Of a DNA stretch of 64,000 nt, positions 26,944 to 62,317 are shown piece by piece (position 1 is the first letter of the stretch; the number at the start of each line of letters is the position of its first letter). The DNA is taken from positions 1-64,000 of the forward strand of contig MPNL01000006.1 in the NCBI GenBank assembly GCA_002239005.1, in the 5' to 3' direction. Below the pieces are notes generated by a model, which was not told the origin of the DNA, did not search any database, and saw only the letters and a program-made list of their open reading frames with translations. Origin of the DNA: Truepera sp. bin119. GTDB taxonomy: Bacteria > Deinococcota > Deinococci > Deinococcales > Trueperaceae. The translations under genes were made by a program, and so were the position numbers.

Positions 26944-27189
26944 ATGAACAGAGTCCTGCAGGGACAGGTCGTTAGCGACAAGGCTGACAAGACAGTGGTT
27001 GTCCGGGTCGAGCGGCGCTTCAAGCACCCGCTCTACGGCAAGGTTGTGACGGTGTCGAAGAGGTATATGGTCCATGATGAGGAGAACGCTTATGGTGAGG
27101 GGGATACCGTGGAGATCGCCTCCTGCCGGCCGATCAGCCGAGGGAAGCGCTTCAGGGTGACGCGCCTAGTCGAGAAGGCCCTCGGATAG
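26944..27189 (+). CDS. rpsQ: 30S ribosomal protein S17
   Basis: OB-fold assembly protein of the 30S body, 81 residues. [33 protein letters not shown] and [29 protein letters not shown] are standard. No Thermus-type long C-terminal helix is present; the protein stops soon after [10 protein letters not shown]. Confidence 0.96.
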
Positions 27190-27567: not shown

Positions 27568-27890
27568 TGGCCAAGATCAGGCTCCGTAAAGGAGACCGCG
27601 TCCGGGTTATGTCGGGTCGCAACAAGGGTGCTGAAGGTCGGATCCTGGCGATCCTTCGCAACGGGGAGCAGGTCATCATCGAGGGTGTCAACCTCATTCG
27701 CCGGACCCTCAAGCCGACACAGCAGAACCCGAGGGGCGGATTCACCGATCAGGAGGCCCCTATTCACGCCACCAACGTTCAACTTCTCGACCCGCAGACC
27801 GGTGAACCCTCCCGGATCGGCTACACCTTCCTCGAGACCGGAGAGAAGGTCCGGGTGAGCCGTAAGAGCGGGGCGCAACTCACCGAGTAA
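27567..27890 (+). CDS. rplX: 50S ribosomal protein L24
   Basis: Assembly initiator of the 50S. 107 residues with the KOW motif ([23 protein letters not shown]) at the N-terminus and [35 protein letters not shown] after it. Coupled to rplN. Confidence 0.96.
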
Positions 27891-56658: not shown

Positions 56659-58060
56659 ATGAAGAGAGCCCTTGTGACCCTGATGCTGGCGACCCTCGTT
56701 GTTGGGGGCCTAGCGATCACGCAGGGGGTTGCCCCCATCGATGAGCCCCGGGCGCTGCTTGAAGATGAGCGTAACACCGTGGAGATCGTTCGTGAGTTCA
56801 GCCCCAGCGTTGTAGCCGTCACTGTGATGGCACCGATTCGTCGGGGAGACTTCCGCTTCCGGCTTCCCTTCGACTTCCTCCCCGAAGACCTCCGTGAAAG
56901 GCTCGAGCGTCTCCCCGATGGGGGTTTCCACTTCGACGTCCTCCCCCTCCCCGAGGGCGAATCGGGTGAGGACTTCTCTTTCGAAGACCTCCCCGAAGAC
57001 CTCCGTGAAAGGCTCGAGCGTCTCCCCGATGGGGGCTTCCGCTTCGACTTCGGGTGGCCGTTCGGATCCGAGCCCCGTCGGCGGGGGAGTGGCAGCGGAT
57101 TTGTGATCGACGAGCAGGGCCGCCTGGTGACGAACTACCACGTGGTCCAATCCGCCCTCCTGCCCAGATCGAGCGAGTTGCTCGAGGGTGCCGAGATCAG
57201 CGTCAGCTTCCCTGGGGGGGACGGAGTTCGGGTGCGGTTCCCGGGGGGGGGAGGAGCCGGTGCAGGTCGGGGTGGTGGGTGTCAATCCATCGTTCGATCT
57301 TGCGCTTCTCGAGCCACTCGACGGTTCGCAGCTTGAGGGGACCTCACCGCTGGTGCTGGGCGACTCGGATCTGGTCGAAGTCGGCCAGAAAGCTGTCGCC
57401 ATCGGTAACCCCTTCGGCCTCGCCTCTACCGTCACCACGGGTATCGTTTCGGCGGTGGGGCGTACCCTCCCGTCGGTCGGGCAGGTTCCCATCCCGATGA
57501 TCCAGACCGACGCCATCGTCAATCCCGGTAACTCTGGCGGCCCGCTGCTGAACTCCAGCGGCGAGGTGGTCGGCATCAATACTGCCATTGTTCCTGGTCG
57601 CAGCGGCACCTCGTTCGCCGGTGTGGGTTTCGCCATCCCCAGCAACCTGCTGCGCCGGAGCCTCGATGAGCTCCTGGCGGGCGGTTTCACTGAAGTCTTT
57701 GAGACCCGTCCCCGCATCGGCATCACGGTCCGCAATCTGCTGAGCTACCCCGAGGCTGTGCGCCAGAGCCTGCACCTGCCCGACGAGGGCGTGATGGTGG
57801 TCGAGGTCCAGGCGGGCGGTCCGGGTGAGGTCGTGGGCCTACGCGGCGCGAGCTTTACCGTGAACGTCGATGGCCAAGAGTTCCCCGCAGGCGGAGACGC
57901 TATCATCGCGGTCGACGGCGAGTCTGTCCAGAGCGCTAGCGATTTGCAGGAGGTGTTGTTCTCTCACGAGCCGGGCGATACCGTGACCCTCGCTGTGGTT
58001 CGCGACGGCGAGCAGGTCGAGATCTCCGTTACCCTTGAGATCGTACCTAGGGAGGGGTGA
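56659..58060 (+). pseudogene. HtrA/DegP-like trypsin-fold protease, frameshifted
   Basis: Residues 1-20 form a signal sequence or anchor. The trypsin-fold protease follows: GSGSGFVIDEQGRLVTNYHVV with His 161, Asp in NPSFDLALL, and Ser in VNPGNSGGPLL, then a PDZ-like domain in the last 100 residues. The frame changes inside a run of nine G (57243-57251): eight G would give one continuous 466-residue protein; as written, translation ends at 57336. A 60-base segment (56878-56937) is repeated at 56989-57048, duplicating PEDLRERLERLPDGGF. Whether the break is real or a base-calling slip cannot be told here. Confidence 0.85.
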
Positions 58061-59674: not shown

Positions 59675-60943
59675 ATGCATTTCACAGACTTCGGTCTCCA
59701 CCCGCGGGTGGCGTCGGGCATCGGCGTCGCTGGCTACGAGAACCCCACCCCTATCCAGGAGAAAGCCATCCCGCTAATGATGGCCGGCCGCGACGTGATG
59801 GGCTTGGCCCAGACCGGAACGGGCAAGACCGCCGCCTTTGCCCTGCCTATCCTTCACCACCTCGTGCGCGGCCGGCGCGGCCGGGTGCGGGCACTCGTCG
59901 TCGCTCCGACCCGCGAACTGGCCGAGCAGATTCACGACACCTTCCGCACCCTCGGCCGGGCGACCGGCTTGCGGAGCGCGACCGTCTATGGCGGCGTCGG
60001 AATGAATCCGCAGATCCAGGCTCTCGGCGGCCGTGCGGAGATCATCGTGGCCTGCCCGGGCCGCCTGCTCGACCACCTTCAACAGTCCAATGCTGACCTC
60101 TCCAGTGTCGAGATCCTGGTCCTCGACGAGGCCGATCACATGTTCGACATGGGCTTCCTGCCCGATGTCCGGCGTATCCTTCGCCAACTCCCGTCGGAGC
60201 GGCAGACGCTGATGTTCTCGGCGACCATGCCACCCGACATCCGCAGCTTGGCCCGCGACGCCCTGCGCGACTCGACCATTGTCCAGATCGGCCACATCGC
60301 CCCAGCGGAGACCGTCTCCCACGCCATCTATCCCGTGGAACAGCATCAGAAGACCGCCATTATCAAACACCTGCTTGGGCAGTTCGACCCCCAGGCTACC
60401 CTGGTGTTCACCCGCACCAAGCATGGAGCCAAGCGCTTGGCTCAGCAACTTGACCGCGTCGGCCATCTCGCTGTCTCTCTGCAAGGCAACATGTCGCAGA
60501 ACAAGCGGCAGCAGGCACTCGACGGGTTCCGCCAAGGCCGCTACCGGATCCTGGTCGCCACCGATATCGCTGCCCGAGGCATCGACGTGATCAGGGTCTC
60601 GCACGTCGTCAACTACGACATGCCAACGACTGCGGATGCTTACACCCACAGGATCGGCCGCACCGGCCGGGCCGAGCGCAAAGGTGAGGCCCTCTCCCTG
60701 ATCACCCGTGACGATGAGGATATGGTCCGCACCATTGAACGTATGCTGGGCAAACCTCTCAGGCGAGTCCGTGCGGAGGGCTTCGACTACCGTGCCCCTG
60801 ACCCTGACTCCAGAGGACCGACCGAGTTCGCCAGAAGCCCGCGCCCGCAGCGAGGTCGCGGTGCCCCCCTGGTGCAGAACGGTTCCAGCAGGAAGGGGGG
60901 GGCGCGCCAGCGTCACAGGAGCCGGAGGGGGCGGCGGGGCTAG
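59675..60943 (+). CDS. DEAD-box RNA helicase, RhlE-type
   Basis: 422 residues. Q-motif FTDFGLHPRVASGIGVAGYENPTPIQ (3-28), Walker A AQTGTGKTAA (45-54), PTRELAEQ, VACPGRLLD, DEAD with LDEADHMFDMGFLPD (about 148-163), SAT, and in domain 2 LVFTRTKHGAKRLAQQL, ATDIAARGID and HRIGRTGRAER are intact. The last 60 residues are a basic Arg/Gly/Ser-rich tail typical of RhlE, likely binding RNA. The AAGGA ribosome site lies 6-7 bases upstream. Family roles are ribosome assembly and cold tolerance. Confidence 0.94.
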   Translation: MHFTDFGLHPRVASGIGVAGYENPTPIQEKAIPLMMAGRDVMGLAQTGTGKTAAFALPILHHLVRGRRGRVRALVVAPTRELAEQIHDTFRTLGRATGLRSATVYGGVGMNPQIQALGGRAEIIVACPGRLLDHLQQSNADLSSVEILVLDEADHMFDMGFLPDVRRILRQLPSERQTLMFSATMPPDIRSLARDALRDSTIVQIGHIAPAETVSHAIYPVEQHQKTAIIKHLLGQFDPQATLVFTRTKHGAKRLAQQLDRVGHLAVSLQGNMSQNKRQQALDGFRQGRYRILVATDIAARGIDVIRVSHVVNYDMPTTADAYTHRIGRTGRAERKGEALSLITRDDEDMVRTIERMLGKPLRRVRAEGFDYRAPDPDSRGPTEFARSPRPQRGRGAPLVQNGSSRKGGARQRHRSRRGRRG

Positions 60944-61251: not shown

Positions 61252-61360
61252 GAGGCTCCCCACCGGGGTGAGGGTAATGGCCTGTAACTGGAACGAGACG
61301 GCCGCCATCCATGCCGACCTCAAGAGGCTCCCCACCGGGGTGAGGGTAATGGCCTGTAAC
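61252..61360. CRISPR. two-repeat CRISPR-like unit
   Basis: A 37-base sequence starting GAGGCTCCCC and ending CCTGTAAC is present exactly twice (61252-61288 and 61324-61360), separated by a unique 35-base spacer (61289-61323). The repeat has an internal near-palindrome, CCCC-A-CCGGGG. Size, identity and spacing fit a one-spacer CRISPR. No third repeat, leader or cas gene is seen in the window. A simple local duplication is the alternative. Confidence 0.5.
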
Positions 61361-61570: not shown

Positions 61571-62317
61571 ATGCGTGAGACACAGGTTCTAGGCGCGGTG
61601 CGTGATGCAATGGAGGGGATGGGTGGTCTCTTTCCCGACATGGCGAACCGGGTGTTGGAGGTCCACCGCAGGCTTGTAGATCACTATGGGGTGTGGAGAT
61701 GGATACAGCGGCGCGAGCCCATGCACGAGCTGATTTCTACCATGCTCTCTCACCGCACCACCGAGGCCGACGAGGCCCGAGCCTACGCTCGAATGCGCGA
61801 GCGCTTTCCCACCTGGGAGGCGGTCCGCGACGCCCCCGTAGACGAATTGATCGAGGCCATCTCGCCAGCGAGATTCCCCAGCACTAAGGCACCCAACATC
61901 CAGAAAGCACTTGCCACGATCATTGAGGAGCGCGGCGAGGCCTCCATCGACTTCCTAACCGACCTTGCACCTGAGGAGGGTCTGGCCTGGCTTCTCCGGC
62001 GGCCCGGGGTAGGGGTGAAGACCGCCTCCCTGGTTCTGCTCTTCTGCTTCGGCAAGCCGCTGCTGCCGGTGGACACCCACGTGCACCGGGTGAGCCAGCG
62101 GGTGGGACTGATCGGGCCAAAGGTCGGCTCCGACACCGCCCACCGGATCCTGCTCGCGCTGCTGCCGAACGACCGGCACACACTCTACGCCTTCCACGTC
62201 AACACCCTCAGGCACGGCCAGCGGGTGTGCGTTTGGGGGGAGCCCAACTGTGACCGCTGCCGGCTTACAGACCTGTGCGACTGGTATAGGCAGAACCGGG
62301 CGCGGGGTCGCCCCTGA
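61571..62317 (+). CDS. nth: endonuclease III-like DNA glycosylase/AP lyase
   Basis: 248 residues of the HhH-GPD family for oxidised-pyrimidine repair. The helix-hairpin-helix LLRRPGVGVKTASLVLLF (about 137-154) includes the catalytic Lys; PVDTHVHRVSQRVGL (about 160-174) the catalytic Asp. The iron-sulfur loop CVWGEPNCDRCRLTDLC (about 218-234) has C-x6-C-x2-C-x5-C spacing. The 35 residues before the fold are an extra N-terminal segment. The lineage can have several Nth paralogues, so the exact subgroup is open. Near endonuclease IV. Confidence 0.85.
   Translation: MRETQVLGAVRDAMEGMGGLFPDMANRVLEVHRRLVDHYGVWRWIQRREPMHELISTMLSHRTTEADEARAYARMRERFPTWEAVRDAPVDELIEAISPARFPSTKAPNIQKALATIIEERGEASIDFLTDLAPEEGLAWLLRRPGVGVKTASLVLLFCFGKPLLPVDTHVHRVSQRVGLIGPKVGSDTAHRILLALLPNDRHTLYAFHVNTLRHGQRVCVWGEPNCDRCRLTDLCDWYRQNRARGRP

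Follow-up and report, generated by a model that had tools for sequence, protein, structure and literature searches.

In Truepera sp. bin119, two identical direct repeats separated by a single segment of spacer size lie between the genes for a DEAD-box helicase and an endonuclease III-like protein. Is this unit a small orphan CRISPR array, as its shape suggests, or was it made in another way? The initial annotation of the window (the whole stretch of 64,000 nt that was analysed, positions 1 to 64,000 of contig MPNL01000006.1) had noted that the dimensions are those of CRISPR arrays and had offered a satellite array served in trans, a relic or a young array. Our analysis points to a different origin. 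With a probability of roughly 84%, the unit is the scar of off-target CRISPR adaptation, in which a prespacer from the host's own DNA was integrated by Cas1-Cas2, most likely of type I-C, at an intergenic site. The unit is not a satellite array. It is best explained as the work of a CRISPR integrase whose genes lie in another part of the genome, and to that extent the CRISPR dimensions, the young array and the action in trans of the earlier reading lead in the right direction.

Structure and setting of the unit

The unit, its neighbours and the CRISPR arrays of the genome are listed in Table 1. The unit consists of 37, 35 and 37 nt, exactly, with no slack at the boundaries. The two 37-nt copies have different neighbouring bases at each end (G/A before, T/C after), so the length of the repeat is exactly 37 nt. 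The initial annotation had described two identical 37-base repeats around 35 bases, and these are exact at 61252-61360; its placement of the unit between a helicase and an EndoIII-like gene is borne out by the Pfam domains of the two neighbours.

Table 1. The repeat unit, its flanking genes and the CRISPR arrays of the genome. Positions refer to the window; arrays are located by contig.
Feature	Location	Strand	Description
Upstream neighbour, DEAD-box helicase gene	59675..60943	+	ORF; Pfam DEAD and Helicase_C
Repeat copy 1	61252..61288	+	37-nt target-site duplication (proposed); same 37-mer as copy 2
Insert ("spacer")	61289..61323	+	35 nt; exact copy, sense strand of a class I methyltransferase gene
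Repeat copy 2	61324..61360	+	37-nt target-site duplication (proposed); same 37-mer as copy 1
Downstream neighbour, HhH-GPD (endonuclease III-like) gene	61571..62317	+	ORF; Pfam HhH-GPD
I-C array	C82		Repeat 37 nt, 44 copies; spacers 34-37 nt, mode 35 (17/43)
I-G array	C4		Repeat 36 nt, 35 copies; spacers 35-38 nt, mode 36 (17/34)
I-D array	C41		Repeat 28 nt, 43 exact or near copies; spacers 36-41 nt, mode 37
I-E array	C85		Repeat 28-29 nt, constant period 61, 54 copies

Direct repeats were counted in DNA of the same genome from which the excluded array intervals had been removed. In 157,501 bases there are four exact repeats of at least 20 nt at spacings of 40-120, the unit included; the other three have spacings of 111, 108 and 102. 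The scan for further scars covered 215,475 bases, made up of the window and other stretches of the genome, and gave two exact repeats of at least 18 nt at spacings of 50-90, namely the unit and a repeat of 20 nt at a spacing of 56. The repeat pair of the unit exceeds chance.

The 37-mer folds no better than shuffled sequences (z-score -0.44, as compared to -3.35 for the I-C repeat of the same genome). The internal near-palindrome to which attention had been drawn is weak on this measure, and the argument from a hairpin was dropped. No known structured RNA was found at the site with Rfam (E up to 0.1). Elsewhere in the window, a gene that was labelled protease-like from its sequence (56659-58060) is split into two overlapping frames, 56659-57336 and 57188-58060. 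This is an apparent frameshift, and the gene has a 48-nt exact repeat inside, at 56877 and 56988.

Origin of the insert

Comparison of the 109-bp unit with its own genome returned the unit itself and one other place, C58:46130-46164 on the minus strand, where 35 of 35 bases are identical. The match takes in exactly the whole spacer and does not extend into either repeat. The spacer had been called unique, which was wrong. The donor ORF on contig C58 is 280 aa long with methyltransferase domains, and the other ORFs around it, read by eye, look like chromosomal housekeeping genes. The tetranucleotide profile of this contig correlates with that of the window at 0.978 (0.981-0.991 for the quarters of the window), so the contig is unlikely to have been mis-binned. 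Relatives of the donor gene at E ≤1e-30 are present in two of 38 other genomes of the family.

Phages and plasmids had been proposed as the place to look for the source of the spacer, and no convincing match was found among phages, plasmids or viral contigs (best phage E 0.1, best plasmid E 0.08, no exact match in viral contigs). On these searches and the 35/35 match to the chromosome, a foreign spacer was rejected. At neither junction do the donor bases beside the match have anything in common with the repeat. The donor flanks on C58 are ATG and AGT, unlike the TTC PAM of type I-C. In the available portions of the sources, TTC is the PAM motif of a type I-C system (PMC8406640) and is used in substrates (PMC6519985).

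CRISPR-Cas systems of the genome and the array interpretation

A Cas1 search of the genome located four loci, for which PADLOC assigned the system types I-C, I-G, I-D and I-E. The I-C gene set is complete (cas3, cas5, cas8c, cas7, cas4, cas1 and cas2, all full ORFs), and its adaptation genes cas4, cas1 and cas2 appear intact as ORFs. The I-G locus encodes a Cas4-Cas1 fusion, Cas2 and Cas8g; the I-D locus Cas10d, Cas3d and Cas5d; and the I-E locus Cas3e, Cas8e, Cas7e and Cas1e. The same search found no cas1 beside the unit or anywhere on the contig of the window. The statement that the window contains no cas gene stands for cas1, the gene that the scan covered.

The I-C and I-E arrays each have one unit with a noisy near-duplicate alongside (L010 4628-4768 and L013 12950-13100, respectively). 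The near-duplicates are changed in both repeat and spacer, mostly towards G/C, and resemble assembly noise. A variant I-G repeat pair of two copies with one spacer (L011:1953-2060, contig C4) is located across the cas genes from the main I-G array, at a distance of about 9 kb. Contig C28 carries two degenerate I-C repeat pieces (27155-27186 and 27823-27858, L099), isolated, about 670 nt apart and without an array; they flank a 127-aa ORF and could be what is left of an array or regulatory elements that resemble the repeat.

The 37-mer of the unit matches none of the array repeats of its own genome. The initial annotation had looked to the rest of the genome for the same repeat beside cas genes; it was not found there, which counts against an array. 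With up to three mismatches allowed, the 37-mer occurs in one of 111 genomes of the phylum, its own, in exactly two copies, and a satellite array with a common repeat was rejected on this ground. The genuine I-C repeat, taken as a control, is likewise present in just one of the 111 genomes (44 copies), so the rarity of the 37-mer is a weaker control than it appears. Likeness to the I-C leader, the only leader compared, amounts to 2 of the last 20 bases beside the unit in either orientation.

A relic or young orphan array would belong to a CRISPR family that has the 37-mer as its repeat, and its spacer would target the host by chance. The repeat-spacer-repeat geometry and the spacer length do suit a type I array, and canonical arrays do carry self-targeting spacers, among them the I-E array of this genome (33/33). 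Such a family would, however, be represented in the 111 genomes of the phylum by two repeat copies in a single genome (with the caution that the I-C repeat is equally restricted), and its array would have no likeness to the I-C leader, no strong hairpin and no phage- or plasmid-like spacer. We regard this explanation as very unlikely.

Candidate integrase and target site

Among the four systems, only I-C pairs a 37-nt repeat with a modal spacer of 35 nt, and the 37-nt duplication of the unit is unlike the repeat lengths of I-G (36), I-D (28) and I-E (28-29). Length is the main argument for I-C as the integrase.

Likeness of the site to the native repeats was assessed by two kinds of test on the four repeats. 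In register, 18 of the 37 positions of the site agree with the I-C repeat, a score that is reached by 681 of 254,626 non-array 37-mers of the genome (0.0027) and by 0.00475 of shuffles; like the I-C repeat, the site starts with G and ends with C. In gapped alignment, the corresponding fractions are 0.0015 for the I-D repeat, 0.16 for I-E, 0.18 for I-C and 0.43 for I-G. As two kinds of test were tried on four repeats, neither the likeness to I-C nor that to I-D is strong, and the resemblance to native repeats appears modest and not exclusive to I-C. I-D as the integrase, which the gapped likeness would favour, was set aside because the I-D duplication is 28 nt; the likeness stays as counter-evidence to I-C. 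On the attacked strands, G is present at both borders of the site, while the I-D duplication does not have G at both.

A second misplaced insertion and other self matches

The first unit of the I-D array (L012:11564-11658, contig C41) contains a 39-nt exact copy of a sequence on contig C45, located between exact 28-nt duplications. The donor ORF on C45 is one that we take to be cytochrome c oxidase subunit I. The 28-nt copies start 10 nt inside the first repeat and extend 10 nt into the first spacer, and this off-register insert lies in the one outlying interval of the array (104). Upon removal of the 39-nt insert and one 28-nt copy, a perfect 28-nt I-D repeat and a 37-nt spacer, the modal length, are restored. 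The duplication has the length of the local repeat though it is out of register, which fits an integrase that measures length. This second misplacement supports the reading of the unit as off-target integration.

Other matches of array DNA to the genome were also collected. None of the 43 I-C spacers matches the genome; the two matches of the I-C array are the degenerate repeat pieces on C28, and a PAM could not be drawn from them since they are not spacers. The 34 I-G spacers gave nothing but the short repeat pair near their own locus. The I-D array also has an 89% match to contig C24, beside a transposase-like ORF. Unit 43 of 53 in the I-E array (L013) matches the chromosome at 33 of 33 bases (C33:103648), within an ORF that is presumably acyl-CoA dehydrogenase-like; the last repeat position of this unit is T, where 49 of the 53 units have C. 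Three exact self-derived inserts were found altogether. Two of the three are misplaced, one outside the arrays and one off-register in the I-D array, and in the third, in the I-E array, the repeat position that derives from the PAM is T, the less frequent base.

Repair of a staggered break could also leave a duplication around a templated insert. Filling-in of the break would produce a tandem duplication of 37 bp, and the 35-bp filler would be copied from another locus; microhomology is not required for this. Break repair does not, however, predict that the duplication has the length of an array repeat and the insert the modal length of a spacer, nor does it predict the like coincidence (28 and 39) at the I-D array, and we consider it highly improbable. 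An assembly artefact or chimeric read is scarcely credible: although the evidence comes from one metagenome-like assembly of 91 contigs, and noise in other parts of it is suggested by the near-duplicate units of the I-C and I-E arrays, the unit itself is clean, an artefact would need two independent precise junctions without common bases together with a perfect 37-nt duplication of CRISPR length, and the I-D insertion follows the same logic.

Proposed event

Under off-target adaptation, a 35-bp prespacer would have been cut from the methyltransferase gene on the host's own chromosome, and the donor flanks suggest that it was not trimmed at the usual PAM. Cas1-Cas2, most likely of type I-C, would then have inserted it at an intergenic site that is partly repeat-like. 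Staggered strand attacks 37 bp apart would have led to duplication of 37 bp of the site, and the outcome would be a repeat-spacer-repeat geometry where no repeat had existed before. We infer both Cas1-Cas2 as the agent and which of the four integrases acted.

The unit is probably inert now, as the donor site has no PAM-like TTC and the unit has neither a leader nor a hairpin like those of I-C. This would account for the toleration of a self spacer. A relative with an empty site was not found: in a search with 221 bases, the site is absent from 60 relatives, and the 37-mer is absent from the 110 other genomes of the phylum, so there is no single-copy site among these. The EndoIII-like gene led to 80 distant loci in relatives (best protein identity 68%), which are of no use for an empty site.

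Implications

The evidence for misplaced integration, as cited in the parts of the literature available, comes mostly from overexpression or in vitro experiments. A scar with an exact duplication length, a donor and a candidate integrase, together with the second case in the I-D array, would indicate what natural events look like. It provides a search rule: a spacer-sized insert of self DNA between exact duplicates that are as long as an array repeat. With this rule, one could count how often off-target and autoimmune adaptation occurs in nature. Caution is needed, as array finders may call such scars orphan arrays. More tentatively, off-site and off-register integration might act as a natural sink for self DNA, although we think this rather doubtful. 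If it were true, readable traces of autoimmune acquisition would persist in lineages with several CRISPR systems only in places where the spacer is unusable, and these traces would serve as starting points for new arrays.

Comparison with known systems

Off-target integration by Cas1-Cas2 in vivo was reportedly described by Nivala et al. in 2018. The unit is like these events in its spacer-sized insert, its non-CRISPR site and its duplication of repeat length. It differs from them in that it occurs in a natural genome without overexpression, is probably of type I-C and has a donor gene identified within the same genome. Yersinia pestis and Sulfolobus islandicus are said to have been put forward by Nivala et al. 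as hosts of natural cases. Overexpression of Cas1-Cas2 results in integrations in non-array regions of the genome, according to the accessible text of a paper that cites Nivala (PMC11788318).

The available portion of PMC6895254 describes non-CRISPR integration in vitro by the type II-A Cas1-Cas2 of S. thermophilus, with a preference for G at the attacked base. In the same portion, a ruler places the second attack at a fixed distance, and the duplication keeps the repeat length. The site of the unit, with G at both attacked borders, is like these off-targets; as far as that portion goes, they are likely half-site products obtained in vitro (PMC6895254), whereas the unit represents full-site integration into a chromosome.

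Ectopic spacer acquisition inside the arrays of S. thermophilus, as given in the accessible parts of PMC7999890 and PMC8047081, is similar in that integration occurs away from the leader-proximal repeat. The ectopic events described there use real repeats and are in register, whereas the unit lies outside arrays and the I-D insert is offset by 10 nt.

Self-targeting spacers, like the insert, come from the host chromosome. The sections of the review PMC6990116 that were available state that they are tolerated where targeting is ineffective, with no apparent PAM or with mutated repeats. Toleration in the present case is likely to result instead from the position outside, or out of register with, a functional array. 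A partial search of the literature, limited to the portions of the sources available, gave no natural off-target integration by type I-C. Off-target integration is already known in kind, and the unit would add a further member.
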